The translations under genes were made by a program, and so were the position numbers. The notes under the pieces are model-generated. The model saw only the letters and a list, made by a program, of their open reading frames with translations. It searched no databases and was not told the origin of the DNA. From NCBI GenBank assembly GCA_031213475.1, contig JARUPZ010000002.1, positions 6,147,049 through 6,211,048 of the forward strand: a DNA stretch of 64,000 nt, given 5' to 3'. This stretch comes from Nereocystis luetkeana. Its lineage: Eukaryota; Sar; Phaeophyceae; Laminariales; Laminariaceae. Below, in pieces: positions 1-37,083 of this stretch (position 1 is the stretch's first letter; each line of letters begins with the position of its first letter).

Positions 1-135
1 TAGGGTATGATGACCACAGGGCTCGCGTAGGGCGAGGCGGAGTGCTGTATGAGGCCGGCCGCAAGGTATTCGTCCAAAATAGCGTCCATTTGCTTGGCCA
101 CGATGGGATTCACGCGATAGGGGCGAGAGGTCACT
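1..135 (-). other. N-terminal end of Ty3/Gypsy reverse transcriptase (cut by window edge)
   Basis: The residues around R-P-Y-R-V, an amphipathic segment (Q-M-D-A-I-L-D-E-Y-L) and A-G-L-I-Q then S-P-Y-A-S-P-V-V match the opening of Ty3/Gypsy reverse transcriptases. Catalytic palm motifs lie outside the window. Confidence 0.85.
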
Positions 136-1004
136 GGTGGGCTTCCAGGCGGAATCGAAATCTCGAACGGTAGGAGGGAACACGAACCAAAGTCGGTAGA
201 TGACGTGGAAAAGACATCTGCGAACTCGGTGAGGGTGTCTCCTAGCTGGGGGATGACGTGGGGGTCCCACCCTGGGCCGTGGAATTCGAACGAGATTTCT
301 TTGAGGTGCGCCGGCAGTTTGTGCCACACTTTCAGGAAACTGGCGCGCTGGGCAGGGTTTAAGCGTTTCAATAAGGAGGGTTGCGGCTCGCGGTCAGCCT
401 GGAGTGGCTTGGCAGGGTCGGGCCCACTACAAGGGGGAGTTTCATTCAGAAGATGAACAAAGGGATCCGAACACGTCGGCGGGGCAGTGATGCCGGCCGA
501 GGGGAAGGCCACCGGACCCGGGACAACCATATAAGGTGCGTCAGGGGTGTCCAGGAGCCGTGTCGAGATGCTGTCGTCTTGGTGCAAAACCGATGCGACA
601 GGCACACGAAGAAGTGGACAGGACGAGGTGCCTAGCAAGTCGCCGGGTTCCAACTCCGCAGAGCCGGCCAACGGAATATGTTGGGAGCCATTCTCAACGA
701 AGTGTGTGTCGACGGGAAAATTGTCTGAACCTCGCAGCATGTCCACGAGATAGCAGCCGGCCAAAGCTGGTGATCCGTTACTGCGAACCAGAGAAACTTG
801 GACGAGCTGGTGGTCTCGTGAAAGTGATACACCTCGGTCACGGGCGTAAAGCAGGTGGTAACCACCCATTGGAGCCGAAAAATCAGAGACAAAGGCCACG
901 GCTCCAGGTGGTTTTTGGTGAGATAAGGTGAGTTTACCGAACACGCGGTTATCGCCTGGGCGCGGAGTCAAGGTGCGGTAGGAGCGCTCGTTGAACCGCA
1001 TCCC

Positions 1005-1330
1005 ACTGTCACGACCGAGGAGGACATCTTGTTGCATGGCCTCGGAGGGGACTAGGTAAGCCCAGACCGCAAGCGACGCAGTAGGTTTATCCTCTCGCTG
1101 GAACTGTATGCTCGAGCGAACTGTGGTAGAGGTCTGCAGGGGGGGGGGCTTTCCGAAGCCGCCCCAGGATCGTGGGGGGGTTTGCGTCTCGCAAATTGTC
1201 GAGGCTGTGCCTGATCGTACCATGTGCTCCCAGGCTTTGAGAGTTAGGAATGACTGGAGGGAGCCTGTATCCAAAAGGGCGACGCATCCAAATTTTGAGG
1301 AAGAGTGGCCGCCGTAGAGCTTGACCTTCG
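1005..1330 (-). other. retropepsin-like protease region of the Ty3/Gypsy element
   Basis: The catalytic D-T-G triad is at 1271-1263, preceded by hydrophobic residues (A-L-L) and followed by S-L-Q-S-F. About 80 codons later an L-L-G-R-D motif matches the second conserved loop of retropepsins. It belongs to the same frame as the NADAR domain upstream and the RT downstream. It would process the element's polyprotein. Confidence 0.8.
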
Positions 1331-1629
1331 TTGTAAATGAAGAGTGGTCCATAGTAACAATACCAGGGACGAGGCACGGTCCCTGCTCAGTGAGAGGTTG
1401 GAGGCGTGGAGGGGTGCCTTCTGCCCGGGGGGTCACCGAGAAGATGTTGCCATCATGATCCGGTGGCACGTTCGGCACGAGGGTCGAATAGCCAGAGGGA
1501 GCGGTAGCCGTGTCACAGGTCGAAAGACGCTGTTGACAGGAGGGGTCTACCTCAAAAATAAATTCCCGGCCCTGCGTGAGCGAGTCGTTTCGCGGGGGAG
1601 GAGTATAGCGGCGGCGCGCCGGTGATGGG

Positions 1630-2052
1630 ACGCCATCGCGGAGGTGCTGGCGCACAATCTGCAGGGTTTTTCCTAACAGGTTGAGGCCGCGCCATGCGGG
1701 GGGGCACTGGGCGTTTGGGTGGTCCGCTCGGTAGCCTATCCCCCAGATGGTATCGTAAGGGCTAGCTTCGGCAAGCAGCCGGTCGCCGGTATCCATCAGG
1801 TGCAGTCGCATGGTTGGATTTTGGGCGAACTTGGCGTAGGAGCCAACGAGGACAATATTTTCTCGTTCACGTTCCCACTTGGTAGCATCAAAATGTTGTA
1901 CCTCGCGTCCGTACTGTTTGTGCAGCTTGGGGTCGGACACACGCATAATTGTTTGAAGCGCGGGGTGGTCACCAAAGAGGCGACTTTTTTCTGCGGCGAA
2001 AAACTGTTCCGCGCACAAATAGGAAGTACCGTCTATCGTAAACCTGGAAGGG
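1630..2052 (-). other. NADAR (YbiA/DUF1768-like) domain inside the retroelement frame
   Basis: About 140 residues read like a complete NADAR domain. Landmarks in order are F-T-I-D-G...A-E-Q-F-F-A-A-E-K near the start (compare V-D-G...S-E-H-Y-F-Q-A-Q-K in E. coli YbiA), L-F-G-D, Y-G-R-E-V...F-D...W, A-K-F-A-Q-N-P, the acidic motif T-G-D-R-L-L-A-E-A-S-P-Y-D, W-G-I-G, and the closing N-L-L-G-K-T-L...V-R-Q-H-L. NADAR proteins are N-glycosidases: YbiA-type members act on riboflavin-pathway intermediates, and other members are reported to remove ADP-ribose from guanine. The domain joins the retroelement protease through an uninterrupted in-frame linker, so it appears to be element-borne. Its role there is unknown. 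The first strand of the domain is less clear than the rest. Confidence 0.8.
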
Positions 2053-2110
2053 GTCCATTGCGAGAAGCAAGAGGGAGGTTGCCAGAAAAGAGAGCAGGTA
2101 CACGCGATCT

Positions 2111-3650
2111 AGGTCTACGTGTCTACGACGACGCCATGTCTGATAGTATAGCTGGATATATGGGTATATAACTGACTACCGGATAACAAAAGGGGCAGTA
2201 TGGGGCAGGCCCGACTACTGTGATGCAGGTCGGCCTAGACGTGTGTACGTACTCACAGAGATTGTTGTCTTATCTTGATGATTCCCACTTTCCTGGCTCT
2301 CAGAGAGTTCTGAGAACAACAGGGGGGTAATATATAGATTATTTGCGTGGCGCGTTTCATCAGAAACACGCCTCCTCGACAATAGAGGGAAACGGGATCA
2401 TGAATACCATGACACCTACCCGATCTTTAAAGCGTATAACACTCTCCGCACCAGGAACGGACCGGATAATAGACGGGTCGACGTGCGACCAACACGCGGT
2501 TCCAATTTTTTGTGGACCAGCAGGATCCAGAAGTATTTTTTCAGATTATTGACATATATGAGGAATTTCACTTTGACCGGCGAAGTAAGGGCACGTGGGT
2601 GTGCCTTGATTGAGAGGTGTACTGATGATATGAGGTATTGGTGGTGATTATATTTGGTTCATGCTGGAACTTTTTGTTTGTGACTGTTTACTGGTTGCAA
2701 AATATGGGGGGTTTGCATCCTAATAATTCATGATTGGTTATTCTACCACCAGTATTGTCGTGCGAACTTGGATTTGTTCGCGATGGAGAGAGACTAGGGA
2801 GCGCCTGGGGGCGTGTGCGGTCCATATCTACTCCTCCTGTGGTATTTTTCTGGTGAATTTGTGATTTAGCTCTTGATGAGGCTGGAGAGAGACTAGGAAG
2901 CGCCTGGGGGCGTGTGCGGTCCATATGAAAATGGGTGTATGCTATCTCACGTTTACCGTCACGATCTGTGTATCTATGCCGGTGGTAGTAAGGACAACGG
3001 AAGGTTTTTGCCCGGGGAACCTCGCGATCTCTGGCATGATATTTTTCAGCTTAGTTTCTATTTTTCTGGCGCGACTACTCTAATATTTTCCGTGATTGCA
3101 ATAGTTCGTGTGGGATTGAGGGAGAGGTTTTTGCTTGTCGTCGGGATGAGTTTCCTCTTGCCATTACTGTGGTTGATGTAGGTCAAGGAGTTACGTTCTG
3201 GTTATTTTGGTTCGCCACTGTTATATAAAGAGCCATGCAAGGAGTGTGTTCGTTTGGTCTCATTAAATGACAGTTTCGTACCGGTTGGTATCATTTTATT
3301 ATTGTGGATTCTGTGATTCTTGACATCTGAGGTTGTAAGCGGTGACGCGCGAGGCTCACTTCTTCTCTGCCCTTACCTTGTGGGAGGCCAATACTACATG
3401 ACCTGAAACATCCATCCATAGACTGCCATGCAGTCTGGGCTACCGCTGCCTGAGGCTACGAACAGTAGTAACATATTATTATTATCATGCTCGCCTTCTG
3501 ACAATATAGCGTATAATAATAATATAGCGTAGATGCCATCCCAAGGTAAACCGAATATCCTTCCGTAAATAATCAGCAGTATTCCTCATACGCTTCTCTG
3601 CCAGCCTTTTCCCAATTTCCATTGCCCACATCATTTCATTGTTGATGTTA
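2111..3650. other. no recognised gene; probable leader/LTR side of the retroelement
   Basis: This stretch lies on the 5' side of the minus-strand retroelement, so it may hold its leader and 5' LTR. I could not define LTR ends or a tRNA primer site. A 99-bp direct repeat is listed separately. A short sequence at 3475-3505 resembles the 3' end of the LINE family at 4.6-9.4 kb. Several small ORFs show no family signature. Confidence 0.4.
2784..2925 (-). repeat. two-copy 99-bp spaced direct repeat
   Basis: A segment of about 45 bp containing GCGCCTGGGGGCGTGTGCGG occurs at about 2784-2826 and again at about 2883-2925, exactly 99 bp apart. Because 99 is a multiple of three, a 78-codon minus-strand ORF (2688-2924) repeats the peptide M-D-R-T-R-P-Q-A-L-P-S-L-S-P twice. 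I do not recognise the peptide. Confidence 0.7.
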
Positions 3651-3762
3651 CATTGGGGGTGTTACGTTATCTGCTAACTTGTGTCACTAGATACATTGAA
3701 TACGAGCTAACGCATAAACATAATGCTAGTGAGTTATCGATTATATACGTCATTCGTTTGAT

Positions 3763-4300
3763 GTGTGTTATTGTAGCAAGACTTCCGTTAACACCCTCAC
3801 ACAACGTCGCTCGATACGGACTGCTGCTGCGGCTGACACGGTAACATAATCTTGAGGTTGTATTGACCGTATATATCCGTCATCCCTCTAACGTGTGCTA
3901 CGATAGCCACTACGAATTTCACTAACACACTAACATAGATAGTGTTATGCACGCGTTTATTTGGTCGTGTACTGCTGTACGTTATCCGCCTAAAGGGTAC
4001 CACTCTGTCCCGAAATATAATAACCTTTTGGGTAAACAATTAGTGTATAACCGGTTCTTATATAGTGGGACAGAGTGGTACGACGGTAGCAAGTAAGAAT
4101 CCCGCTAACATACTAACATATCGTTACTCGCTACGGGCTGATGTCGCTAACACGGTAACATAGTGTTGACGTTTAATTGGCCATGTACGTTGTCCCTTCA
4201 ACGTGTTTTACGATAGCCACAAGGAATTCCGCTAACACGCTAACATAGTGTTACTCGAGATGGGCTGCATACCCCAACACCGTGCCACATATACTACTGC
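3763..4300. repeat. degenerate tandem array with a two-part unit
   Basis: Segments of the type (T/C)GATAGC(A/C)A...TTCC(G/A)CTAACA..CTAACATA..GTTAC recur with starts near 3773, 3900, 4083 and 4211. The spacings alternate at about 127, 183 and 128 bp, so the real period is a roughly 311-bp dimer. Words such as GCTAACACG and GTAACATA continue weakly to about 4470. No protein coding is evident. Confidence 0.6.
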
Positions 4301-4589
4301 GGTCAGTACGGGATCAAGGTAACACTCTAACACATTGTTACGCGATCGCCCGCCAATATCATAACACACTAGCACTATGTTATCACAATATTCAGAAAAT
4401 AGTTATCGTGGTAACGTAATGTTACGGGGGGTTTTCGCTGACGCCTAACATTAACATAAAACGTTAAGTGCTACGTTATCCAAAGTGTGAAGTATTTGCA
4501 TCTGGTAAAATTTTTCAACATCGATCGGTTTCTGCTCCCGATGCCACCCGACCACACAATAAATATCATTATTATATCTATCACGAGAG

Positions 4590-6965
4590 TTATTATTATG
4601 CTTGCCATCCGACAATGTGCAGCATGAGCTTCGACGTTGATCACTCAAAACATTCCTGAAACAAGAAATCCCCGGGAACAAAGGAAACCTATGCACAAGG
4701 CCACGCTACCTTTCATGTATACTTCCCTCTATGCTTTATTTACGATACTCCATTTATTTGTTGTCGTTGCTCCCTCCTCCATCTCAATATGTGTTCTTTA
4801 CGCTATATTCTTAAACCCTAAGCCGCATCCAAGCTCCATCCCCCCGCCATCGGTGTGGGTTTGTCATCCCCCCCCCTGCTCCTTCTCGTTTCCGGGCGAT
4901 CCCTAAGCTGGAGTTCGAAGCGTGGTACCCTCCGCGAAATGGCGACCTGTGTAGTCACCGAGACGATTTGGAGTAGGCTTTCCTCCACCACTCCTTCCTT
5001 CCCATCGACCCACCATCCCTCCCCCCCACGACACTAGCTGCTAGCTGGTCGATGAACTTGCTGCCCTCTACCCCGAGACGCCCAAAGCTTTCCACTGCTA
5101 AAGTGGCAAGTTTTTGGCTCCGTTCGTCGTAGCACACATGTCCCGGACGAACGTAGTATTGGCGCTTGCGTGCCTCGGAGGTAGAAGCAACTGATCCATC
5201 GTGATCAACACTGCCTCCTCGCTGGTGTATCTGCACTTGGGGGTCAGCATGAGTGACGTCGAGCAGGATGGACTTCTCCCTATACTCCCTGTTAGGAGCG
5301 TCCCGGAGACCTCCTCCCCTGACGACAATGTTTATCCGAAGATTTCGGTCAATGTTTATCCGCGGTGAACGGTTCGCGGCCCTCCACTTGGTGTCGAACT
5401 GAATTAATTCCGAGCCACTCAACGTACGGGACATCGCATGGACAAGCGGTTGGTGCTGATAAACCTGCGCCCCTGTTTTGGGGCAGATACGCGAGTGGCG
5501 GGTGTCCACGTCACTGTATGCAGCAGGGGCACCTCACTGCCACGTGTTCCTCGATCCCCATGAAACGTCTTCACACGCCCACGAACTCTGCTGCGGGTAT
5601 GACACGAAGTGAGCCCGTTGGTCTCGCCCGAAGGCATGCCGTGGCTCCTGCCCCCTGTAGACTCATATAGCGAGCCTTGGCGAAGGTTTTGATCTCGGTC
5701 CCACCCATCGGCTCGCCCGGTCCGGGGGGGCGTGCTGTCGTAGGTGGTTCCTCCGGCGAAGCAGTGTGGGCAGCGTGTGCCGACCTTGATTCACCAGCTT
5801 GCTCAACTTCTGTTGGGCTTCGCGCGAATTAGTGGTTACGGCGTCATGCGCAGCCAGCATATCCGCCTCCGGGGGTCTTGGGGCCAGGTCCCCCTCTGCG
5901 CCTATACCCCATTTCAGCCAAGATTCGGGGACAATGCCCGCCATCGCTTTCTTTGCCACCTCCCATGTGCCCCTTATCTCCCGCAAGCTGTCTCCCAGCT
6001 GAGCAATGATGCTCGACTCTGGGAGCCCCCTCCTCAGTTTATTGCCTCACGGGCCTGTAAGGTCTGCTACGACCTCCGGCAAGGTCCCCACCCTGCTCCC
6101 GATGGATGCCGACATTCTCCTGGTTTCTGCCGACGGCAGCCCTAATCCTCCCGCTCCCATTGATAGGCGTGCTTGGGCTTGCTGGTAAGGTTTGAGAGTC
6201 AGCCGAATATCCGGGGACCCCTCCTGGAAAAACGACTGTGCCTCCGCCGCTCCCAATAGCTCGAGTATTTTCTCGTAAGCCCACTGCGCCCCATTGCCTT
6301 CTCTTTTACATGCTTCGAGGGGCAGCCCCGGGTCCAGAGCCCTTTCGAGGTAGCTAGTCCGTTACCCGAGAGATTCGACGGCGATGAGGGCCGCTGCTTG
6401 TTTGTCGGGCATGTTGGCGAGGCTGCGCGCAAGGCGGTCCGCGCCGTCATCCCTCACTACCTCCAATTCTCGCCCCCACACGTATACTTCCGTGCCGATC
6501 GGGACACCCACCACCGTCACCCCTCCTTCGTCTGCGATGCGGACCTCAACGCTCTCAAGGAGCGAAATCTCCTCCACCGTCGGGGCGTGCCCTTTTGGTG
6601 GTAGTGCCACTGTTTTGGCGGCGTTGACGACAATACCGAAGTCATCTAGCTCTCGCCGGAGGAAGGTGAATGCTCTAACCGTGTTGGCCGAGATCCCCGT
6701 AAGGCCGAGAGAGACATCGTCTATGTACGCGAAGGCTTCTACTCCTTCTCTCTCGAATTCCTGCCGGAATCGCTTAGCCTCGGTCGAAACGCCAGGCAGA
6801 ACATTGCTGGTCCCATGGGGTCCCCTTGCTGGACACCGCTGGAGCAAGCGGTCGTCCTGGTCTCCCCTGAGTCCATCCGGAGAAACACGTCGGCTGGTCT
6901 TGTGCCGTAGCACTTGGCCACTAACGGCGTGAGCGCTGTGACACGCAGTTTGCCACATCTTCTAT
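4590..6965 (-). mobile_element. RLE-type LINE (R2/R4/NeSL-like), older 5'-truncated copy A
   Basis: On the minus strand this copy has a reverse transcriptase palm with G-V-Q-Q-G-D-P-M-G-P (about 6800) and catalytic Y-I-D-D (6716-6727), then a long linker. It ends with a Cys-His cluster followed by a restriction-like endonuclease (about 5560-4955) with the L-L-D-V-T-H-A-D motif. RT followed by a CCHC cluster and a PD-(D/E)XK-type nuclease is the layout of R2/R4/NeSL-like LINEs. The frame is broken: RT reads in one frame (6958-6362), the endonuclease in another. It is visibly diverged from copy C. In the endonuclease the residues before I-V-V read I-N where copy C reads M-D, so a probable catalytic Asp is lost. 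The 5' end is missing. The 3' end lies near the TTATTATTATG stretch at 4590-4600; I found no clear target-site duplication. Confidence 0.85.
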
Positions 6966-7480: not shown

Positions 7481-9510
7481 TTACAGGGGACCACAGTAAA
7501 TAGGACCAAGTAATATTATTATTTCTCTTGCCATCCGACAATGTGCAGCATGATCTTCAACATGGATCACTCATAACTTTCCCGAAAGAAGCATCGGAAA
7601 CAAAAGGAAACGCATGCACCAAGTCTACCTCCCTTCCGTGCCAACTTTCGGCTTGTCTACTCTGTTTGCTGTGTTTGCTCCTTCCTTCTCATTACGTTCT
7701 ATTCTTAAATCCTAAGCTGCATCCAAGCTCCATCCCCACGCCATCTGTGTGGATCTGTCGTCCCTCCCCCCCCTGTTCCTTCTTCCTTCTTGGCGGTCCC
7801 TAAGCTGAAGCTTGAACCTCGACACCCTCCTCGAAATGGCGACCTGAGTGGTCACCGAGACGATTTGGAGCAGGCGTTCCTTCACTACCCCCTTCCTTGC
7901 CATCGACCCACCATCCCTCCCCCCCACGACGCTAGCTGCCAGCTGATCGATGAAGTTGCTGCCCTCTACCCCAAGGCGCCCAAAGCTTTCCATCGCTAAG
8001 GTGGCTAGTTTGTGGCTCCGCTCGTCGAAGGACAAATGTCCCGGACGCGCGTAGTGTTGGCGCTTGCGCGCCTCGGAGGTAGAGGCAGCTGATCCATCAT
8101 GATCAGCACTGCCTCCTCGCAGGTGGACCTGCGCTTGCGGGTCTGCATGGGTGACGTCCAGCAGGATGGACTTTTCCCTGTATTCCCTGTTAGGAGTGTC
8201 CCGAAGACCTCCTCTCCTGACAACGATGTCCATCCGCAGGTTCCGGTCTCCAGTGAACGGTTCGCCGCTCTCCACTTGGTGTGGGATTCCCAGCCGCTTC
8301 AGCGTGCGGGAGATCGCTTGAAGCAACGGTTGATGTTGGTTTACCTGTGCCCCTGCTCTGGGACAGATGCGTGCGTGGCGTGTGTCTATGTCGACTGCCT
8401 CGCAGCAGGGGCACCTCACCGCCACGTGCTCCTCGGTGCCTATGAAGCGCCTTCCCATGCCCACAAACTCCTCTGCTGGTATGACACGGAGCGAGTCTGT
8501 TGGCCTCGCCCGAAGGCAAGCAGTGGCTCCTGCTCCTTGTAGACTCCTGTAGCGAGCTTTGGCGAAGGCCTTGGTCTCGTTCCCCCCCAGCGGGTCGCCT
8601 GGTCCAGGTGGGCGTGCAATCTCCGGTAGCCCCTCCAGCGAGGCTGTGTGTGCAGCGTGTCGACCCTGATTCACCAGCTTGCCCAATCTCTGTTGAGCCT
8701 TCAGGGAGTTAGTGGTTACGGCATCATGCGCCGCCAGCATGTCGGCTTCAGGGGGCCCTGGGACCAGGTCCCCCTCTGCACCCATGCTCCATTCCAGCCA
8801 GGATTCGGGGGCGATGCCCTCCATCGCTTCTTTAGTGACGCCCCACGTGTCCCTGATCTCTCGCAGGCTGCCACCGAGTTCAGCAATGATGCTCGAATGA
8901 GGGAGACCCCTCTTTACCCTGTCTCCTAGCGGACCCGTTAGGTCTGCTAGAACCTCCGGCAGGATGCCCACCCTACTCCCAATTGAGGCAGACATTCGCC
9001 TCGCTTCCGTCGACGGCAGCCCTAACCCTCCTGCTCCCGTAGAAATGCGTGCTTGGGCTTGTTGGTAGGGTTTGAGAGTCAGTTGGCTGGCTGGGCACCC
9101 CTCCTGGAAAAACGACTGCGTCCGCCGCTCCCGGTAGCTCTAGGATATTTTCGTAGGCCCACTGAGCCCCGTTGTCGGCCCTTCGGCATGCTTCGAGTGA
9201 CAGCCCCGGGTCCAGAGCCCTTTCGAGGTAGCCCGTCCGCTGCCCGAGGGATTCGATGGTGATGAGGGCCGCCGCTTGCTTGTCTGGCATGTTAGCGAGG
9301 CAGCGTGCAAGGCGGTCCGCGCCTCCGTCCCTCACTACCTCCATTGCTCGCCCCAGCACGTATTCATCCGAGCCGATCGGGACACCCACCACCGTCACCA
9401 CTCCTTCGTTCAAATAATATTATTGTTATTAATAGTAAAAATAGGCAAATACCTGGTATAATATAGGTTTTGTGCCTACCGTAGGTCCTCTTTACTATGG
9501 TCCCCCGTAA
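7481..9510. mobile_element. Stowaway-like MITE, split by LINE copy C
   Basis: The left terminal repeat is at 7481-7507 (TTACAGGGGACC...TAGGACC) and the right at 9484-9510 (GGTCC...GGTCCCCCGTAA); each is flanked outside by TA. Without the LINE the element would be about 126 bp. The inner sequence matches, in reverse orientation, the intact copy at 62401-62506. TA duplications and terminal inverted repeats fit a Tc1/mariner-derived MITE. Confidence 0.75.
7521..9414 (-). mobile_element. RLE-type LINE, younger 5'-truncated copy C inside a MITE
   Basis: This is a 1,894-bp insertion flanked by the perfect 10-bp duplication TAATATTATT (7511-7520 and 9415-9424). It starts within the RT-proximal region (9413-8973), and then an ORF of 427 codons (8995-7712) covers the linker and the C-terminal part. 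That part has a C-P-C-C...H-A-R-I-C cluster and a restriction-like endonuclease with M-D-I-V-V and L-L-D-V-T-H-A-D, the two acidic positions expected for the nuclease core. The two ORFs overlap in different frames, so at least one frameshift is present. The 3' UTR ends at the duplication without a long poly(A). It would have been mobilised by target-primed reverse transcription. Confidence 0.88.
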
Positions 9511-22900: not shown

Positions 22901-25900
22901 ACCTTGTTCCCCTTTGCTGGGGTAACATCGAAGGCATTTCGAAAGAACAAGATGGCTGATGACATGTCCGGAAATTGTCCGCCGTCGGACTTGGAAATGA
23001 CGCACTTGCGCAAGAGGGCACTTTCTACTGTTGCAGACGAGAAAATTGCGCTGAAGCCATCCGCTGTTTCGAGCCCGTCCAAAACGCTGAGGAAGTCATT
23101 TACCTGCACGAGCAAGTCGCCGAAGGTAACTTCCGAATTTCAGTAGGCGTCATGGCACATGCAGAGTAGAAACTCGTTGTAAGGGATAGGCGCTCTGTCC
23201 CATTTCTGGGAAAAATCTGCGAGTTTGGTGTGCGGTGACTGATTGCAGTGTCTTCGTACCTTGCGCGTTGAGTACTTAGTGTCCTCGTACATTATGGCCC
23301 GGCTTTCGGGGTGTTCGCTACTCCTGTGCTTCGAGGCCATGGAATGGACGCGCGATAGAAGCCGCTCAAGATCTGGTAGCTTCTTGAGAAGGGCTCTTGA
23401 TGCATCCGCTTCCGGGGAGAGGGCGGCCGCGAGCTCCGAAACCGCATCTAAGCGACCGTTGATATGTCTGCCCGAGTAGGGAGGGAATAAGGCGAGACGG
23501 TGACAATGGTGTCGCCCTTTCAAACGCGCCAGTACAAAGGGGTCTCAATGGTGCGTCGACAGAGGCCGAGAGCCTACTGATCTACCACCCTGCAAGGAAT
23601 AGGAGCACAACCTTGACGTGGGTTTCGCAGCGTGGCTCAAAATGTGCACGCACGATCGGCGGTGTAGGGCTCTACTTCCAGGCGAAATTGCCCACATTGC
23701 AAACCCAAGTTTCACATGAGTTTCTGGTGGTTTGAACCTCTTCACCTTGGCAGGAGGAGCGGCTTTAGCACCCAGTCCTTAAGCAAGCGTCTGCCGAATG
23801 CTGTTCCGCACCGATTGATGAAAGCCCATAAGCTACCCTTCTCGCCCCCATCAAAACTGTTGCGCAGCACCTCGAGGTTCGACAAAGAGACCCCGTCTAG
23901 AACCATGTGCGATTGCAGTGAGGTTTCGGCGCTGCTCCCTGGCAAAGAAGACGCGCTCGGGAGAATCTGCATCTCTTCATCGCCAGTTTGAGGACTGCAT
24001 GAAGCGTCATCCCTGGGGGGGGAAGGAAGGGCGGCTTGCTTCATGTCTGAAGGAATGTACGCCACAAATCGTTGCATAGACAGCAAATCGTGGTCAATGA
24101 GGGCCCGTCGAGTGTGCCATGTTGCACCTCCCAAAGCCGATAAGGCCATGGCACCATCCTTCCCGCCATCGATAACAGCACGGACAATTGCTGGCCACTG
24201 AAAGACGTCGTCGCTTGCCGCGTTGTCTCCATCCTGCCCTTCCTTGCGCCCGACATGGAAGTACCGGCCGTCCTTGAGTTCTTTAACCGTGCGGGGGGCA
24301 TCCCAGAATTCAGCGCCTTCGCGCAAGATCACGATTGACGCTAGAGGAGCCATGCACTTGATCATGTGCACTGTAGTCTCCGACAAGTTGTCCTGCGGAT
24401 GTGATAAACGTCCGTGTTAGGGTCCCTAAAAAAGACTCAAGTACCGTCAAAAGCGCTGATCGATACTTTGTACAAACCGGAACCATGTTTGATGGAGAGC
24501 CTTCAACACTCACTATTGAGAAGGCGGGCAGTATCAAAGCTGGATGATCTCATAGACAAGAACCTCAAAACAACGTGGTGGTTCGGGTGCTGGCGCAATG
24601 CATCGCACCTGGATCTGTATCCTTACGATTTGCGGCGCAGACGGCATATTGGGCATTGCCACGCCATTCACTAGGTGCCCGTAACACCGTAGCGACAAAC
24701 TCACCTTTTGCATGACGATTTCCACAGGTAGCTGCTGAGCAAGCAGGGTACGAAGCCGAGAACGCGCGGGGTCATCGGCAAACTGACCGAGGCTAAATGT
24801 CGCCGTCGTCGCGTCCACCATGCAAACACCGTACTCGCATACGGCTGCGGGAGGGCCATCATCACCGTCCCCATCTATCTCACTTTCTTTCGGCGGGCTC
24901 AAGGCGCTTTCCTGCGAGAAAACAACGCGGTTCGTGGTCAGCGCATCGAGTCGCCTTCGGCAGTTAAAGCAGCTGTCGAAAAAAAAGGCCACATGAAGAG
25001 TAAAAGGGACGTTGTGGTAAAATTTACAGGTCGTAGGGTGAAGAAAACGGACTTATAGCGCTTCTAGATTTCGAGCCATGAGAAAGCTTGATGCTGCGTT
25101 CCGACACGATCGAAGTTCAAGTGGCTGAGGTGGGGAGATCGAAGATAAGACGATGCAGAGGGGGAGCGTGTTCGTCATGGCCTTTGATACTCTAGACAAC
25201 TGACAAACGAGACAAACAAGACAAACAATACAAGCCTGAGAATGTGCGAACACGAAAGGCAGCCAACTGGGACTTTGAACGCTTGACTGGGAATTTTAGT
25301 AGGTCAAGGGATCCCGGTGCACACTTGGGTTGTAACAAAGATAATGACGCCTGTGGGGGGACATATCCGAGTGCGTGCCACAAAATTGGAAGCGCATACG
25401 GCATAGGACACTTAAAAAGCAGTCACGAGCCGAGAGCATATGACCTACATTACACAGATGCTCCCAGTACCTGGGAGTAAAGTGAAGCATATTCATTTTC
25501 GAGATAAAATACTTGAGGTACTCGTAGTATTTGGGCTTTATGCACTGCGGGAAGGTGCGAGTACTATTAATAGCAGTATTTCGAGATTCTATACTTCGGA
25601 TGCTAACGTACTTACAGTCTTTCGGGGTTCAATACTGTGGAGTACTGCTGTACTTGAGTATTGCAGGGTTCTATATTGCGGGTGCTGCCAAGTACTGACA
25701 GTATTCGTCCGTTAGGACTGCGAGTACTGAGAGCACTCGGAGTACAAAATACTTTCAATATGCGCAGTATACTCTTGAGTATGGAATATGCTTCGACCAT
25801 CTGTGCACCGACTCGAAAAAAACATCCCAGAAAGCATTCACGGATGGTCCCGCGAGTGGAAATTCGAGCAAATTACTTTCGGGGGGAGTAACTGGAGTAC

Positions 25901-28900
25901 CTAAGAGTACTGGCAGTATTTCGGGAGTATATAGTGCAAGTACTCGCTGTATTTAAGGGTTCAATACCCTTGGTACTCTGACTATTTATTGCAAGTATCC
26001 CACATGTTTGAACTGCGGGTACTGCTTGTACTCGGGGTTCTCTACTGCTTAGAATGCCCGTACTCGCTGTATTTGGGCCTTCAGTACTATTGAAACCCCT
26101 AGTACTCGCAGTATTTAGGCCGCCAGTATGGCAATACTCTCAGTAGTCGGACTACGAAATGCACTCGACTCGAGAGTATGAAGTATACTGGGAGCATAAA
26201 ACTTGAATGGAGAAAAAAGGGACTGAGTTGATAGTGGGAGTAGGACAAACGGCAGTACTACGCAGCCAACGTCGTTTCTTCACCTTGATCGACAGAATCA
26301 TGTTCACAGAACGCGGGGAGCCGTCCGGAGTGGTCGAGACATCGTCCAAGAAGCAGTACGTCCGAGTGCCACGACTGAGGATGCTGCACAACTCCCGTTT
26401 CACAACTTTGTCCTTCAGCTCGTGCTTGCCTTTGGCCGCATTTCGGGCCTTGAGCATATCGGGAGTCTCAACCTGACGTCGCAAGCAACACGCACACACG
26501 CATGAGAAGCGCTAAGCAAACCGATATATTTCAACGAAGCATGCTCTCATATTCCTGTATGTAACGGTAGTTAGTCATCACGAGTCGGAAAATATGAAGA
26601 AAAAATGTTACGCGCTCGGCTGGGCAATGGTCTGCAACCGGCGCGAAAAAGTCACCTGTTCCACCCGCGCCACCCGAAATCCCTTGGACACCAAGCTATC
26701 CGCAAACTTCCCGTAGGAAATTTCCGGGAAACCGCTGTGCGCCTTTTCACCCTTCATGTAGATGAGGTCCAACTCCTGCATGCCGACATCTGCGTCTTGA
26801 TGAAAAAGTTCGTAAAACTTCCCAACCTGCCGAGGCGAATATTGGTCTTGTTGTTAGATACCTGGTAAAGTAGAGGGTATGCATCGGCTGCAGACAGACT
26901 CGGTCGAGCTGAGAAAAGAAACACACCCGCAAAATTGAGACTTCAAACGGCATGGAGAGCGCACCTTGAAGAAAAGAACGGTGTCCATGTTTTCGCTCTT
27001 GAACAACCACCATTGCTGCATTGCTGGGGTCTGGGCCTTGATAAAAGATGGCGGCACGTATAGAGTCCGTGGGTTGTAGTTGTCGTCATCCGTCGTTCGC
27101 CGCTCTTTATCCCTTCGGTCGTTGTACAGCCAACGAAGCCCATGGTGAGTATGCCGACCAGTCTCCAGTACTCCCTCCGGCAGAGGGGTGCTCACGCGAG
27201 TCAAGGGGGGCGGAGAAGAGGCAGGGGGGCTGAGCCGTGGCGAGGACGCACTGTTCGCGCGGGACGGGGGCGAAGGGCTGCCCACAAAGGCTCCCCTACT
27301 TTGGCCTGCTGGCTTTCCCTTTCCCGGATGACCCGAGCTGGCTGGTGATATCGTCTCCGTGATCGCGTAGGAAGCTTGATCCGAGGCCTTCTTCAGCCTC
27401 TTCGTCCCAAGCCTCTGAGAGGGTGGAGTTGAACTGGTCTGCCCGGCGCGCCTCTGCTTCGACGATGGCGATTTCTTGTTTCGTGGTGTCGCAGGGGCAT
27501 CAGAGTGGGCGCTGTCGGCGTAGCCATCTGACATCTCGTCTTCGCTGTCGTTACCCTCACTCTGTGGCGAACATTGTGCGGAAAGCACCGAAGATCGGAG
27601 GCAACAAGTACAAAGAGAGCAGGCAGTTGGTTACGGACTTCCGACGAATCTACGAGCACAGCAGTTACCTTAGCTGCGGGAAACAACCAGTTAGCGATGC
27701 ACCAGTAAATCTCGCCCAATAGGTGCAAGGCATAAATAAATCAGGGCTGTTCGCGGGTCAGGTCGAACCTCACGAGTCAGGTCGGGCCGAGCCCGACCCG
27801 ACCCGTGAGATTTGAAAATCTCCTGACCCGACCCGATCTGACCCGACCCGACAGATTTCGGTTGACCCGTGAAATACGGGTTTATCGCGGGTCAGTTACT
27901 ATTTATCTCGACCCACGACTTCGACCCGCGGACCCGGCCCGTGGATTGACACCCTAAACAACTCGGGGGCCATGTTGAACCGACCCGCGAGTGACCTGTT
28001 TCTGGCGGGTCATGACCTAAACCGACCCGTGAGCTTTTCATCACCTCTTGACCCGCCCCTACCCGAGAGATTTGAAAAAATCTTGACTCGACCCGATCCG
28101 ACCCGTGAGATTCGATCACCTCCTGACCAGCCCTGACCGGACCCGCGATATTTTAAAACCCCTTGACCCTACCCGCCCGACCCGTGAAGTGAGCACTTCC
28201 TGACCCGCGAACAGCCCTGAAATAACTTACGTAAGGGCCGGTCCTCAGTACGCGGTGCAATTTTTCAGAGAGACTCAACCGCCACAGCACTTGGTTATTC
28301 CCGGCGATAGCGCTCAACAACGACAGTGGATATAAACACAACTCGCACAAGCGAGACACCCTCCACAGCATGCGGTCCTCGTGGTCCAACTCGCTCCCCC
28401 CGGAGTGCTCTAGAAGTTGTATATCGGTCATCGTTGTTCGATGGCAGACGTTCGAATGTTGAGTGGCACTCATGTCGAAAAATATACCACCACAGCCACT
28501 TCCAGGCCCCCCGGTTTCTTGCGAGGGCACCCCTTGGTCATACCCTACCTATATGCTCGCACCAATAGTAGACAAGCCGCGCGGCAACAACAAGCACTAC
28601 CTCGGCCATCGTGAGCTTGCGAACCGGTCGCAGAAACTTTATCGGAACTTCATACTGCTCGCGCCAATAGCAGACAAGCCGCGCGGCAGCCACAAGCACT
28701 ACCTCAGCCATCGTGCGCTGGCCAACCGGTCGTAGCAACTTTTATCGGAACCTCATCCCAACGCTTCGAGCTCCTTCTATGTTCCTCTTCGCCCCTGGGC
28801 TACCCATATTTCGTTTATTCCACACTGATTTCGTAAAAATTAAGTGCTCTGGGACTTTAAAAAAAAAGAAATAAATGGGAAAACGGAGGTATCGGGATCT

Positions 28901-30796
28901 CTACTTTATTTTTATTTATTTTTACCAATAAAACTCACGTCCTCTTTAGTTCTGCTTTTCGTTTTTCCAATTGTTTTTTTTCCCTTTTTTTTAACCTCGT
29001 CAGGAACTACCCTAACGAGGTGTTCGTGGAGATATGGGAGTTCAACGCTGGAAGTAGCTTGTACTACTGATAGTACTGCCTGTAGAGAAGTGGCTCAGTT
29101 GTCTATCCTTTATAGTTGGAACAAAAGAAGTCGCTGGTTCGAGTCGCGCCAGACATCGTATTCCCCCTTTTTCTGCCTTTTTCTGCCGCTGGTAGAAAAA
29201 GGGAAATCACGTGGAGGGATTCACGATAAAAGAACGCTCAGGGTCGAAAGTGGAGTGAAGCACTTGACTAAAAGAACACACGAGTAGGGAGGGGGGCCAA
29301 ATGAAGGCTAGACCAGGCGCTGATTAGGAGCTTGATCAACCCCGGAGGATGTTTTTGGCGGGAGGCCGTATGGAGCCCAAAGGTACTTGGGTAGTTCGAA
29401 ATAAAAAAGATGGACCACTGAGCCACTCCGTCAGCTGAGTACGATCTCAAAAAATGAAAAAATCGCATGCTCTACACAGTGTACGAGCGTTCGTAGTCGG
29501 AAAACATGCTGCATACCTGGTATAAACATGTACAGGCGTTGCCGACGTACATTCCAGGTACTGCTGCTGCACATTTGAATTCCCGTGGGACAACAGCAGT
29601 GTTGCGGTCAAGGATGCGATATGATAATACCTGGTATCAGGTATCTCATACTCACAACAGCAGTAGTAGTATTTCATATCTACTGCTGTATCTTGTTGCT
29701 GTATTTACTGTAGATTCATTTCAAACAAGGAACGGAACAAAAGCCGACCAGCCGTCGACGTACAGTCAAATCAGTCTAACCATCTCCCGCCATCCGTCCG
29801 CAAGATATGTGCTTGGTACCTGGTATTATACGTATTTACATGTACAGCAGGTACCACCACACACAGCAGCATCAGCTGTCAGCAGCAGTGGATTGCATGG
29901 ATATCACTCCTGAAGCTCCAAACCAACAAGATTCCGCATTCCGCACCAAACCTTCATGATCATGTTCAAATTCAAAAACCGGGCACAAATTAGACAATAC
30001 AGCAGTACCAGGTACCTGGTACTGCTGCAGTGTATGTACATAAAAACGGTGGACAGCAATCGGAGCTCGTACCGCATAAATGGTACGTGAGTGCAGGCGT
30101 ACCTCGTATGCTGAGCCGTCATCGTCATCTCCGCTGCCTTGGAGCTGGTCCTGATCCCACTCAACCTCGTCATCATCGTCTTGAATTGCCTTCGGCCGAC
30201 TCTTTCGAACACGCTTCACCCGCTCCTCCTCCTTCGCGGATTCCGGCGCGAGTTCAAACTGGAAAAACGAGCGATGGCATTCGCACAGACATCACAACCT
30301 TTGCAAGAAAGTGGCCGCGGCATCCTAGCTGGGATTTGGGAAACTTAAGCTATGTATAGACTGCAGCTGTAGCTCTATCGCACAAGTAGGGCGCTACGCA
30401 ACAAGGAGACGAGCTCACCTTCTCGTTGGCGAGCACAACCTTCTCCTTATCGCCGTCGTCGTAGTGAACCAGGTGTGTTCCATCTTTACTGGAGAAGTCA
30501 ACAACCTTGCCGAAGTACCAGTTGTCGTCGTCCCGCCAGAAGACCTTGATACGCTTTCCAACGAGCTCGGCGGGCTCTTGGCTTGACAGTTCCGAGTTGG
30601 CTTGAGCTTTGGGTTGCGAGACTGGCTTGTTGGCCGGGCCTTTCGGGGTAGACGGCTGGGTCTTGGCCGTGGGGGTAGATTGCTCGAGCTTGGGCCCCGG
30701 GGTAGACTGGTCGGTCTTCCTGGTAGGTTCCTTCTTGCTGAAAAAGGAAAACAGGGTTCCCTGCCCTTTCGCCGGGGGTGATTTCTTCGGCTTCAT
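19931..30796 (-). CDS. MSH6: DNA mismatch repair protein MSH6 (16 exons, 1365 aa, complete)
   Basis: Exons: 30796-30419, 30258-30103, 27561-26965, 26826-26656, 26472-26284, 24911-24705, 24392-23746, 23467-23260, 23103-22855, 22572-22423, 22107-21982, 21843-21472, 21327-21147, 20906-20770, 20476-20336, 20119-19931. All are GT-AG, phases fit, and the total of 4,098 nt gives 1365 aa (human MSH6 is 1360). MSH6 pairs with MSH2 as MutS-alpha to find mispairs and small loops in the nucleus. Visible parts: PCNA-binding box Q-G-T-L-F-S-F-F (residues 12-19); Tudor domain (about 79-124) as in plant MSH6; acidic/basic linker; mismatch-reading F-Y-E (381-383) in the MutS I domain; lever and clamp regions; Walker [11 protein letters not shown] (1128-1137); [10 protein letters not shown] signature; Walker B L-V-I-L-D-E-L-G (D-E at 1208-1209); F-A-T-H-Y-H-S-L. 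The ATG at 30796 puts the PCNA box at the very N-terminus, as in other MSH6 proteins. Confidence 0.96.
22687..22711. repeat. GCACTC microsatellite in MSH6 intron 9
   Basis: Four tandem copies of GCACTC lie between exons 9 and 10 of MSH6. Confidence 0.8.
25440..26190. repeat. AGTACT/GCAGTATT-rich degenerate array in MSH6 intron 5
   Basis: About 750 bp of the 1,372-bp intron consist of loosely repeated words of the type GAGTACT, CTCGCAGTATTTGGG and CAGTACTC, often only 20-30 bp apart and in both orientations. It looks like an old, diverged minisatellite. No reading frame stands out. Confidence 0.55.
27742..28219. mobile_element. hAT-like MITE packed with GACCCG subrepeats, in MSH6 intron 2
   Basis: Terminal inverted repeats start with CAGGGCTGTTCGCGGGTCAG (at 27742, and inverted ending at 28219). 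The flanks are AAATAAAT (27734-27741) and AAATAACT (28220-28227), an 8-bp duplication with one mismatch. Inside, GACCCG and CGGGTC words repeat dozens of times, with small palindromes such as GAGATTTGAAAATCTC. The CAGGG ends and 8-bp duplication fit hAT. No transposase is visible. Confidence 0.85.
28556..28759. repeat. 102-bp tandem duplication in MSH6 intron 2
   Basis: Two copies start with CTCGC(A/G)CCAATAG at 28556 and 28658 and are about 85-90% alike by eye. The 102-bp period equals 34 codons, so the minus strand stays open through both. It may be a remnant of coding DNA, but I recognise no family. Confidence 0.7.
29060..29165 (+). mobile_element. possible tRNA-related SINE head
   Basis: AGTGGCTCAGTTGTC resembles an A box and GGTTCGAGTCGCGCC a B box about 45 bp later, in the order of a tRNA promoter. 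Acceptor pairing is not evident. A second A-box-like GTGGCTCAGTGGTCC lies on the minus strand near 29420. Both lie in MSH6 intron 2. Confidence 0.35.
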
Positions 30797-32522
30797 ATCA
30801 ATGCGTACTTCAGCCAAGCTGTTTGCCGGCGCTTGTCTGTAACGAGCTGTGGGCTGCGACAACACGAGTAGGACCTGATCAAGGACGAAGTTGCCGGGGG
30901 ATCTCTCACCCGCGAAATTCAAATTTTTCCGACAATCCCCTAGGGTATGAAATCCGGGGGCCGGGGACGATTTGAAAGAACAAGAATGAGGCGTTTTCAG
31001 ATCTCCGTTGTCCTCGTCGACTCGTTCAGGGCTCGCCACCGTTCCTGACGCTTTTACCCCGAACGAGTTACAGGAATGGTATTGTATTGATTTGGGCGGT
31101 GCAGCAGTCCTGGTACCTGGTGGTCCAGGTGTCATACCACATACATACACAGTACATACATACCACCGCACGGTGGAAAAATACTTCGTCGTCGAATATT
31201 GAAAGATCGCGAATCGTGATGTATGTGCATCAGTAGTATGCCTCCGTAAACCTGTTTTCTCGTGTACGAGCTACCCGCGTTTCTAATCCCCTCCTTCTCA
31301 CTTTCATTGACACAATGTTATGATACCAGGTATTATAGCTACCAGAGGACATTTGACTACATGCACTCGTAACTGCTTCGCTGTTGTTGCGTTGACGCAA
31401 CTTTGGGATCGGAATCGATTGCGGTTTAGCGCTACAGGCGCCGGAAGGCGTGTTGTTTCTTCGGGGCCTGTTGCTAACACCCTGGTATCATAGCTACTAT
31501 ACTACTAATAATATTAGCGCCTGAGATACCTGGTCGACCTGGTTTCGTGTTTTTATGGAGTAAGAAGCGCAACATCAACCGCCAACGTACAGCAGTCAAC
31601 AAATAATACTTGAGCTTTTTCAGCCGATCACGCGCAATCAAGACAACAGACCATATAGATACTGACATCCCTGGTACCAAGCAACCCCGGGATCTAATCC
31701 GGGGTCAGCAGGAAGAGAAAAAACATGTAATTGCCCTGTGTGCTGGAACTACAGTACAATTTACCCCTGACCTGGGTGGGGATAAATGCAAAAATAAACC
31801 ATTTGCCTATCGTTGGCTCACACTGATGACCGCTTGCAAATTGCAAGCAAGAAGCAAGCATTTTTCAATCAACGGCAATTTTACTCCATTCAACAACTAC
31901 AGATTTTCTACTGCCGCCTAAAGCGAAAAAGGGGCTTACTTGGAGCCATCAACGTGCGGAAGTTAATTCAGTTGAATGGACTACTATATTCGAGTACGAT
32001 GATCTTTAGTAAAAAACTATTCGGAACAACGTAAGTGATCACATGAAACAGGATTATTAGAGCTCATTCGTCGTTTTGTTTTTACTCAATCGGAGCACCT
32101 GACACGGTACTAACGGACAAACCCACGCCGGGGGCCTGGCCTGCACACTCAAGAACACGTGCGACGTACCGCACGACTACGTCCAAGCGAAAGAGCATTG
32201 AACATTCGCGGATAGCAGTAAAGGCGGCATTCGACGTGCTTCAATGCAGAGTCTTCCGTGAGTAGTGGGATGCTCGTTTCTACTACACAAGACGGTGCAC
32301 AACACAAATTCAACTGGTACAGTTGAATTTGTCGGAGAATTACGTTTTCACCCTCTATTTCGGCAGTTGGACGAACGGAAAATTTCGCTAAACCTTAACT
32401 TTGAAACCCCGTTTCTACTACACAAGACGGTGCACAACACAAATTCAACTGGTACAGTTGAATTTGTCGGAGAATTATGTTTTCACCCTCTATTTCGGCA
32501 GTTGGACGAACGGAAAATTTCG
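30797..32522. other. spacer between MSH6 start and PIGW end
   Basis: It holds the unseen promoter of MSH6 (minus) and the 3' flank of PIGW (minus). One TACCAGGTA word is at 31324. The right end contains the first copy of a 135-bp tandem duplication. No further gene is supported. Confidence 0.5.
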
Positions 32523-32545
32523 CTAAACCTTAACTTTGAAACCCC
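32276..32545. repeat. 135-bp tandem duplication overlapping the PIGW stop codon
   Basis: Copies at 32276-32410 and 32411-32545 differ at one base by eye. Each contains AAATTCAACTG-GTA-CAGTTGAATTT, a perfect 11-bp inverted repeat with a 3-base loop. The second copy carries the last codons and stop (32523-32525) of PIGW, so one border lies inside the last exon. Confidence 0.92.
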
Positions 32546-35500
32546 ATCTCTCCATCAGAATCACCGCAAATCCTGCAACAACAACAAGGTAAATTGACAG
32601 CGTCATGACGGCTGTTGAGGTGTCGGCGTCGAGTGTTCGCATAGAGAGGTTGATTGCTCCCGTTGCCAGATTCGCCACCATGAAGACCGGGAACAAGTTG
32701 AAATTTATAGCTGACAAGATCTGCGACCTCGACGGTTTTGAGCTGCCGATTAAGCGCGCGCGACAGACGGGTAGGAAATCAAGCTTGTTGACAGCGTGTT
32801 GAAGCGGCAGTAAAAAAATCGTGGTGCGCTAACGCCAGCAACATGACACAATAGCATGACACAAGAGCTTACAGGTAACACACGATCGTAGGGCGAGTTT
32901 TCAGCACTCAAGGACATTATAAAAACAAGTGAATGGGGTAAGGGTAGGACACGTTCGAAACAATTTGCACTACAGATGTATCAGTTACACTTAAAAACAA
33001 GAACGATCGCAGTGGCCCACCTGATTAGGTCTACAAGCATCAGTAGGCTTAGCATGAGCGTCGAGTGTGCGCCCACCCATAGCACGTAGGTTAAATTGAC
33101 CATCCGCCTGCATGGGTTGAGAGGCGCGCAAGAAATAATCAGCGGCAAAAAGGGCACAGTATTGCCAGGCACACTGATGCCACCGTGGCACCACTAGCAT
33201 CTATCTCCGGGATTGACTGAAGCTGCACTCAAGTTCCCGTCACCTCAGCAAGCGAAAGAATACCAGTAAGTGGTAAACTCGTCGACCACATATTTTCTGC
33301 GTCAAGCGTCGTATGGTAGCCATGCTTTCGAATCTCCTACCTGCAAGGGTGAGTGAGAACATTACTGATAACTTGCAACGGCGACAGCATTCATAGTATG
33401 TCCTGACCGATGCTCACTGCTCGAGGGCGTCACGACAAGGATTGACAACTCAATCGGCAAATGACAAAAGGTACGCAACACCATCACCGATCTACAAGCA
33501 CAAAAACAATCATTGAGGTGTCACTGAACATATATCTGGAGAGGCGCCGTTTGACAGTGTTCATGAGCGTTCAACAGCGCTCTTTTGAGCTCGAAAGTAC
33601 AAGGAAGGATTCGAATTAAGAACAAACGGCAACGTACGTTTACGTACCTCGAAGTGTCTTGGATTAGTCCCGCGCTCAGCAATGTAAGTCCCCAGAGGAC
33701 GACAGTGGCCCTGATCACGACGGCCACGCACTTCGATGAAGGCCGTGTTTCTGTTAGCCCCTGTATGCGAACAATGCCGAGCACACAGTAGTCCATGAAT
33801 TATCGACGAAGCTGCTGCTCATGTCCGTCATGTCTTCCCCGCAAAGCAGAATCTTAACCCCTGCGATGAACAGCACAAGACAACAGAACAACCATTACTC
33901 GATCTCACCTTTTCTGTTTTCTCGCGTCCTGTTCGAACTCGGGAGCCCAGCTCCTCGGCGATATAGTAGATGGCCACAAAACCAACAAGGCCCAGCACCC
34001 CTTCCCGGTTCATGCTGAACAGGGTTTCCCTTGGTGCATGAACAATGAAGTCGGAGAGCCCTCCGTTCACAAGCCACCACTGATACACACACATAGCCAC
34101 AAGCGCCAAGAGGAGCCTAAGCCGAGCGGGGTGAAGCCGGTTCATGGGTACCACTACGATGCGCAAGAAAAAGAGCGTGGCAAAAAAGTTCCAGTGGACG
34201 CCGTACTCCGACACATGCTCCTGGTAGTCTAATCCCTTGACTACAACTAAGCGCGACGCTCCCAGGGCAGCTAATGGCCACGCACGAACAGCTGCTGATA
34301 TTCCGTCAACCAGCATGGCCCGCCATAAAGACCAACCCGGCTTTGTGTTCCCTTTTCGTTGTTTAGCCTTGCACCCTGCCGCCAGTCCGCTTCCATGCGT
34401 ATGACAATATTCAATCGGGAAGTGGGGGTTGGGGCTTAGAATGTGGAACGAGAAAGGAATACGATGGCCTGTGGATCTGTTGTTCATCGCTACAGCCTGA
34501 CATCGTGTTACACGGCAGTACAATAGCAGCATTATATACCAGGTATAGCACCAGGAAACTACCACTACTCCTAAGCTTGTGCTGTAATACTTTGGTTTAC
34601 CTTGCGAAGACCGTCACGCCGACTCCTAGATCCATTAGGCCCGTACCGAAAACCTCGGTCTTGGCGAAGCGACGCGGAAACACCTACCAGTATGGAACAA
34701 CGCACGACTTAACATTATACTGCTGTAGTCAAGTAGGGGTCGCCCATTTCGTTCTTGCCGTACCTGCTGTAATTACGCACTGCCAGGTATGAAACACTTG
34801 TAAAAAGTCTGCAGGTACACATGTCGTCATAATAGTTGAGCAGTAGACTTTAGTATCACTACTGTGCTGTATGTAGACTACTCGTAGAGCTCTAGACCAC
34901 AGCAGCAGCAGTTCCGTACAACACCGCGTAGAGAATACACCCCCTCGCACAAATTTCCAAGCTGATTTTCTCGAGAACGGGGAGGGTGCAAACGCCAACG
35001 GCCAAGCGATGCGCTTATGGAAATATCTCGACGACGACATCTACCCAAAGCTACCATATTCGATATGCGTGCTCTCCTTGTATTGGAGAAAGCCCGCTCG
35101 GGAGCTCATCTCAGGGGGCGTACTATCTTGCGCGTTACCAGTAAAGTACTGCAGTTAGTAGTGGAACGCTCGAATACGTGGGGCAAGGAAAAAATGACGA
35201 TAAAAAGTGACGAATGCAGCAACGGGCACCGCTGCGTGATTGTGGGGGGTGATACGAATTGATTGCTCTCCGAGTTACAATGGTTGATTGCAAGGAGTCA
35301 TACGGCATGGGCGCAGCATGATCTTACCCATAATCCTGGGCGCTCACGCCACGCTGCCTGTAGGCGGTTGACAAGACAGACCAAAATTATCCTTGTTTTG
35401 GCCGCTAGCCCGGGGTCTGAGATGGCATGTTGGCATTCAAGGTAACACACTCCCATTGGGATGAAGCTCCGAGCCGATAGCATCCAAACAAGCGGGGCAC

Positions 35501-36505: not shown

Positions 36506-37083
36506 GGGTGCCGTGCGCAAGAGTAGTAGTCAGTGGCGATATGCGGTATGGTAAAAGTTGCAAATACTACGCAGATGGCGTGATCTGCATCTCTGCTCAG
36601 CAGAGTGTGTGCGGCGATCCTGCGCCCGAAATGCCGTTTTAAAATACCCCTGTTCAAAAAAGCCTTCGAAGGAGGTTGTTTCGAATTTGCCTCGAGGGGG
36701 AGAAATTGATAAATTTGCAGGTGACCGCCAAACCTGAACGCGCAACAACAAGCAAGCAAGAGGAACGTGCTCCGGGGTTCCGCGTGGAGAAGGTGGCGTC
36801 CAAATTTGTGGTGAGTGACCCGCATATGAGATGAACGTGTGTCGGACCGGAAAAAGGTATCTGTGTTGACTCTTCACTCTTCATTGTTGTGGCCGCCCTT
36901 TCTCTCTCGCGAGCGCAGGCGACAGGCCCTGCCGACCTCATGCATTAGAGGAGAGGTAGCTGCGTAGTCGTTAAGGGAAGGTTGTGTCGTTATTATTTTC
37001 CAAGTCGCAAACATCGGGCCGCCTTGTTGCCACTTTGCCTCGATTGTTCCGTTCTCAGCAGTTGAGGGTTCAATTTTGAAACC
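36506..37083. promoter_or_regulatory. shared divergent promoter region of PIGW and the RRM gene
   Basis: Only 578 bp separate the two start codons, which point away from each other, so both promoters must lie here or overlap. I see no clear TATA box. A 5' UTR intron for either gene cannot be excluded. Confidence 0.45.

Follow-up and report, generated by a model that had tools for sequence, protein, structure and literature searches.

In Ectocarpus, all families of one lineage of Gypsy long terminal repeat (LTR) retrotransposons (Gypsy-12_Ec32 and relatives) are reported to carry a NADAR domain of the YbiA type at the N-terminus of Pol, a fusion treated in one paragraph of the source (PMC12477816, September 2025). 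The open reading frame 1 (ORF1) proteins of Tx1 long interspersed nuclear elements (LINEs) from Crassostrea gigas, named in the same paper, likewise hold a YbiA-type NADAR within a retroelement protein; these are non-LTR elements, and their domain is described as divergent (PMC12477816). A NADAR embedded together with a polymerase is also found in nido-like and other RNA-virus polyproteins (PMC9503650), although the polymerase in these is an RNA-dependent RNA polymerase rather than a reverse transcriptase (RT). Here we describe a 64,000-nucleotide stretch of Nereocystis luetkeana (contig JARUPZ010000002.1, positions 6,147,049 to 6,211,048; hereafter the window), at one end of which an open frame leads from a NADAR domain straight into an apparent Ty3/Gypsy-type Pol. 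This joining is real and unusual. With the arrangement already in print for Ectocarpus, what is added here is an extra copy, along with residue-level and conservation evidence for a YbiA-type active site that appears intact.

The minus strand of the window is free of stop codons for 702 codons (2108..3), and the frame runs off the left edge. When bases 1-2300 were simulated 300 times with a first-order Markov model and read in the three minus-strand frames, open frames reached at most 422 codons, the longest of each run averaging 159. An earlier note on this stretch, drawn from its letters alone, had given an open frame of about 700 codons; the length held, whilst the start lies at 2108 and not at 2110. 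A single NADAR copy is present within the 64-kb window. The features of the frame and its upstream flank are as follows.

3..2108, minus strand: 702-codon open frame with NADAR, protease-like part and RT-like start (open reading frame list, stop-to-stop scan, simulation)
1638..2087, minus strand: NADAR domain, residues 8-157, YbiA-type, full length (Pfam, NCBIfam, and an AlphaFold2 (AF2) model matching 8bau and 2b3w)
2007..2009, minus strand: codon of Glu34, aligned with Glu43 of P. nicotianae NADAR and E88 of E. coli C7 NADAR (roles from PMC11543638)
1986..1988, minus strand: codon of Lys41, aligned with Lys50 and K95 of the same two proteins (roles from PMC11543638)
1767..1769, minus strand: codon of Glu114, aligned with Glu125, the YbiA-subfamily marker (D171 in E. 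coli C7; PMC11543638)
1317..1628, minus strand: linker, residues 161-264 (AF2 predicted local distance difference test score (pLDDT) below 50 over residues 167-203, where the modelled piece ends)
969..1316, minus strand: retropepsin-like stretch, residues 265-380 (motifs DTG and LLGRD)
399..968, minus strand: region between protease and RT, residues 381-570, in which no known domain was found
3..398, minus strand: probable N-terminal part of RT, residues 571-702, ending at the window edge (sole PDB match 4ol8; ends SPYASPVVIIP)
2109..3360, minus strand: flank upstream of the open frame, lacking any gag-like frame; it may be the 5' LTR and leader, its boundary not defined

The NADAR profile (PF08719) was matched by residues 8-157 with an E-value of 4.8e-45 and 154 bits (cut-off 35.1), and since positions 2-163 of its 163 were covered, the domain is of full length; the full-looking NADAR of the earlier note was thereby confirmed. 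Searches of the PDB returned two clear sequence relatives, P. nicotianae NADAR (8bau, E 3.2e-14) and E. coli YbiA (2b3w, E 7e-8). An AF2 model of residues 1-203, built with an alignment of 35 relatives, had a confident core (mean pLDDT 77.9, with 98 of the 203 residues at 90 or above), and the same two structures were its sole Foldseek matches in the PDB at E<=0.001 (8bau, 3.3e-9; 2b3w, 4.4e-7). Against viral models, Foldseek gave 48 matches at E<=0.001, including NADARs of phages and giant viruses as well as RNA-virus polyproteins, the last of which are more distant in sequence (19-24% identity in three named polyprotein rows).

The adenosine diphosphate (ADP)-ribose site was compared with that of 8bau at the 13 residues that PMC11543638 describes as catalytic or as lying near bound ADP-ribose, and 11 of these were identical: E43, K50, K75, G78, R79, V81, W89, R93, E125, D130 and W133 in 8bau numbering, which are E34, K41, K64, G67, R68, V70, W78, R82, E114, D119 and W122 in the window. 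The comparison uses an inferred numbering offset of two between the printed 8bau chain and PMC11543638, under which all 13 letters fit. According to that paper, G78 and V81 contact ADP-ribose via backbone amides, and K75 lies near the ligand without direct contact. At the two differing positions the window has F for Y84, as have 39 of the 41 relatives introduced below, and A for D86, as have 8 of the 41. Whilst the fold is shared, P. nicotianae NADAR is not known as an element protein, unlike the window NADAR.

Members of the YbiA subfamily are defined by the residue aligned with P. nicotianae E125, which in them is Glu rather than Asp or His (PMC11543638). Judged by its residues, with Glu114 at this position and the catalytic Glu34 and Lys41 in place, the window NADAR is of the YbiA subfamily, and its active site looks intact. 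The NADAR antitoxins associated with DarT1 (BC4488 subfamily) resemble it in that E88, K95 and K115 of E. coli C7 match Glu34, Lys41 and Lys64, but they have Asp (D171) where the window has Glu114, which sets the window domain apart from that subfamily. A DarT partner was not seen in the window, although no search aimed at DarT was made.

Among NCBIfam models the best was TIGR02464 (riboflavin biosynthesis intermediates N-glycosidase), with 134 bits against a cut-off of 73.7 (E 5e-39); a second model, for a NADAR anti-phage protein, was far below its cut-off (26.7 against 240 bits). The name of the TIGR02464 model is no proof of substrate. Nonetheless, because this model also exceeds its cut-off, there is a real rival in which the enzyme acts on a small-molecule ribosyl substrate, such as riboflavin-pathway intermediates or soluble ADP-ribose derivatives, in the manner of E. 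coli YbiA/COG3236, its placement in Pol then being for the handling of a host metabolite or signal and not for guarding nucleic acid. Speaking against this, we know of no link of any LTR element to riboflavin. In its favour, YbiA-type proteins are reported to act on riboflavin intermediates, an N-glycosidase activity that was the only definitive biochemical one known at the time of PMC9303266, and phage NADARs are argued to target mainly soluble ADP-ribose derivatives (PMC9503650). However, the same active site cleaves guanine-ADP-ribose in tested members: several E. coli and phage NADARs hydrolyse it (PMC11543638, PMC11125620), and a YbiA-type oomycete NADAR removes ADP-ribose from guanine (PMC11543638). 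The NADARs of eukaryotic RNA viruses, which lie in polyproteins with the polymerase, are furthermore argued to target mainly macromolecular ADP-ribosylation (PMC9503650). We consider a small-molecule substrate possible, though unlikely.

Relatives of the domain were retrieved at 82 loci from bacterial genomes and viral contigs, of which 81 had a blastp match to the window NADAR, with identities of 34-50%; once sequences below 130 amino acids and those at least 75% alike had been removed, 41 were left. The window keeps 41 of the 46 positions conserved among these, and 41 of 104 at the less conserved positions. As the loci had been retrieved by peptide patterns such as PYDTIWGI, those columns were conserved by construction, and the test was therefore redone with 10 tblastn relatives, hand-picked from 50 tblastn rows among the matches listed (753 phage and plasmid records matched). 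In this second comparison 29 of 33 invariant columns were kept, including 21 of the 23 that lie clear of the segments serving as patterns in the other searches (one such segment was taken as 72-79 instead of 71-78, a shift that touches no invariant column), whereas at the weakly conserved columns (commonest residue below 70%) the commonest residue was matched at 26 of 85. The retention of 29 of 33 invariant positions suggests long selection on the enzyme. A family search of six genomes found NADAR in all six and was not used further. Three of the bacterial relatives (L019, L022 and L036) lie C-terminal in long stop-to-stop frames (460, 361 and 331 amino acids) and are possibly fused to another domain.

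In a tree of 54 rows, the window NADAR fell within a group of 30 rows, mostly from bacterial genomes and in small part from plasmids and viral contigs, and sat on an end branch of 1.82, about three times the median of 0.59. Support for this placement was 92/93, below the star threshold, with the inner order of the group unresolved. Given a bootstrap that was still unsettled, an artefact-like branch (8.26) for the YbiA fragment of E. coli, and eukaryotic rows restricted to the window and one oomycete fragment, we claim neither a donor nor a direction of transfer. The long branch and the held invariant core together point to an enzyme that evolved fast yet stayed functional over the history of the domain; the pattern is silent on the present state of the window copy and on the share of that history spent inside the element.

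Downstream of the linker, DTG occurs at residues 280-282 (1263-1271; DTGS) and LLGRD at residues 363-367 (1008-1022), in the order and spacing of retropepsins. The last 132 residues had a single PDB match at E<=10, the Ty3 reverse transcriptase 4ol8, which is co-linear and has the same SP-VV end motif, at a non-significant E of 1.1; with a shorter 51-residue piece of this end, 4ol8 was not recovered from the PDB. The protease-like stretch had no protease match in the PDB, and Pfam searches on the separate pieces, even at E 10, found neither protease nor RT. No known domain was found by Pfam in residues 226-560, no relative of the protease-RT part was confirmed in viral contigs, and AF2 run on residues 238-518 without an alignment gave no usable fold (pLDDT 29). 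Residues 381-570 may resemble the beta stretch that separates domains in other Gypsy Pols. The window ends before the catalytic part of RT. The protease and RT labels are probably correct; as their basis is motifs plus a single match short of significance, the fusion to a retropepsin and the start of RT that the earlier note had described is only partly confirmed, the DTG and LLGRD motifs and the 4ol8 alignment standing for it, and the lack of any Pfam or PDB protease match against.

The NADAR occupies the N-terminal region of the Pol-like frame, in the order NADAR, protease-like, RT-like, which is the architecture that marks the Ectocarpus lineage (PMC12477816). The two were compared by architecture, and the gag zinc knuckle, chromodomain and LTRs of the Ectocarpus elements were not seen in the window. 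Outside Ectocarpus, the NADARs of that lineage are reported to have almost only bacterial blastp matches (PMC12477816); searches with the window domain covered bacterial and viral sets. The fusion had not been known as standard to the earlier note, but the published arrangement shows that it had already been reported; among the literature matches listed, most of which were judged by title and the start of the abstract, no other report of a NADAR-Gypsy fusion was recognised. The one-off joining that would have refuted that note's reading is contradicted by the same source, in which all families of the Ectocarpus lineage carry the domain.

A one-off joining of a host NADAR gene to a Gypsy fragment could draw on a gene such as Esi0017_0056, a stand-alone cellular NADAR/DUF1768 gene present in Ectocarpus (PMC7922944). 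Such an event is highly improbable, given that the NADAR, protease-like and RT-like parts lie in one uninterrupted frame with G+C alike at each codon position, and that the same order is reported across a whole Gypsy lineage (PMC12477816). By analogy with the published Ectocarpus families, the NADAR would belong to the element lineage rather than to a chance joining with a host gene.

We favour, with moderate confidence, the reading that the window holds the 5' part of pol from a single copy of an LTR retrotransposon, in a Ty3/Gypsy lineage whose Pol gained an N-terminal NADAR of bacterial type (YbiA subfamily), with its active site kept by selection and its activity directed at nucleic acid of the element or at a host response. 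The NADAR would be made within Pol and carried into the particle with RT, and may be freed by the element's own protease. It could then hydrolyse an N-glycosidic bond to ADP-ribose (or a related ribosyl group) on the RNA or complementary DNA (cDNA) of the element or on a host signal, which would help reverse transcription to finish or to escape an ADP-ribosylation response. A hydrolase delivered with RT is favoured by analogy, from which we infer the substrate and the benefit.

An anti-ADP-ribosylation role would be compatible with the conserved active site. More specifically, the domain might be an element-borne nucleic-acid de-ADP-ribosylase, packaged with RT, that removes ADP-ribose from guanines in the element's RNA or cDNA, thereby overcoming a host ADP-ribosyltransferase that restricts retroelements, a proposal that is tentative and rather doubtful. 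If true, it would make the domain a eukaryotic equivalent of the NADARs of phages, for which a role in shielding phage DNA from bacterial ADP-ribosylating toxins has been suggested. An active enzyme would imply that retrotransposition in some eukaryotes is affected by ADP-ribosylation of nucleic acids or signals; a narrow literature search for a link between the two found nothing. The catalytic residues, together with the lineage-wide presence of the domain in Ectocarpus (PMC12477816), make the reading directly testable.

Several observations weigh against the favoured reading. For the protease-like and RT-like parts, neither profile nor sequence searches reached significance, 4ol8 at E 1.1 not being significant alone, and membership in the Ectocarpus lineage would follow by analogy from matching architecture. 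For the NADAR-bearing elements themselves, the part of PMC12477816 consulted reports no activity, expression or processing. Residues at four invariant columns are changed (F37, A38, S42 and A113), and S90 also departs from the conserved residue in the comparison with 41 relatives. The open frame begins directly after in-frame stop codons, and its first in-frame ATG is residue 55, inside the NADAR and past the catalytic E34 and K41. Nor was a gag-like frame found upstream, the longest minus-strand stop-to-stop frame in 2110-4200 being 120 amino acids; in 2109-4954, no minus-strand frame of at least 100 amino acids with a start codon was listed. Either the window copy is damaged or cut short on its 5' side, or its 5' arrangement is not understood, with Pol expressed through frameshifting, read-through or splicing.

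The incomplete look of the 5' end and the four changed residues are also what would be expected if the NADAR were used for binding (as a reader of RNA or ADP-ribose, or as a structural N-terminus of Pol) with no need of catalysis, or were a functionless passenger. However, retention at the catalytic and ligand residues far exceeds that at variable positions, and every family of the Ectocarpus lineage carries the domain (PMC12477816), which makes this alternative improbable.

The earlier note had further taken the frame as whole and as a sign of recent activity. Its 702 codons are indeed open. Of the remaining parts, however, the start codon, gag, most of RT, RNase H, integrase and both LTRs each lie beyond the window, are missing or were not recognised, and the claim of recent activity was rejected on the ground that the element ends, gag and LTR pair are not available.

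Upstream of the NADAR frame, the G+C share drops from 0.58 to 0.45, and the minus strand is rich in A and C at about 2500-3350, a stretch that might be the 5' LTR and leader. A 44-base direct repeat, 98% alike, lies here (2784-2827 and 2883-2926) and may mark a leader or LTR feature, and diverged direct repeats of 51-74 bases, 73-80% alike, with a CTAACA-type motif occupy 3823-4283 beside the retroelement. No repeated LTR was found inside the 64-kb window, the partner LTR and the 3' half of the element being outside it. A search of all six frames of the window for the gag zinc knuckle (C-x2-C-x4-H-x4-C) gave one match, at 32882 on the minus strand amid stop codons, and tRNA and Rfam scans of the window found nothing.

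The remainder of the window consists of intron-rich eukaryotic genes and LINE-like fragments. Two copies of a LINE-like element, 82% identical, lie on the minus strand at 4795-6531 and 7689-9409, with AYIDD in one frame and a Cys/His-rich tail in another; the former is a motif of reverse transcriptases, and the latter comes with a possible restriction-like endonuclease. Three frames of these copies were tested without a Pfam match. On the minus strand at 23745-31270, exons encode MutS domain III above its cut-off and MutS domain I at 18.2 bits (cut-off 20.6), with a PTM/DIR17-type Tudor domain further upstream (27.0; cut-off 27.2); taken together, these have the look of an MSH6-type gene for mismatch repair that includes a Tudor domain. 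A head-to-tail pair of a 136-base unit, 99% identical, occurs at 32275-32545, and part of a GWT1 gene at 33831-34613 on the minus strand (E 9.1e-44). On the plus strand, a G+C-rich open frame of 730 codons at 37066-39255 encodes RRM domains (five stretches matching PF00076). A dynein heavy chain has its exons spread over 17 kb of the minus strand (44425-61581), an intron-rich gene whose domains include AAA_6, AAA_7, MT stalk, AAA_9 and, below its cut-off, D6.
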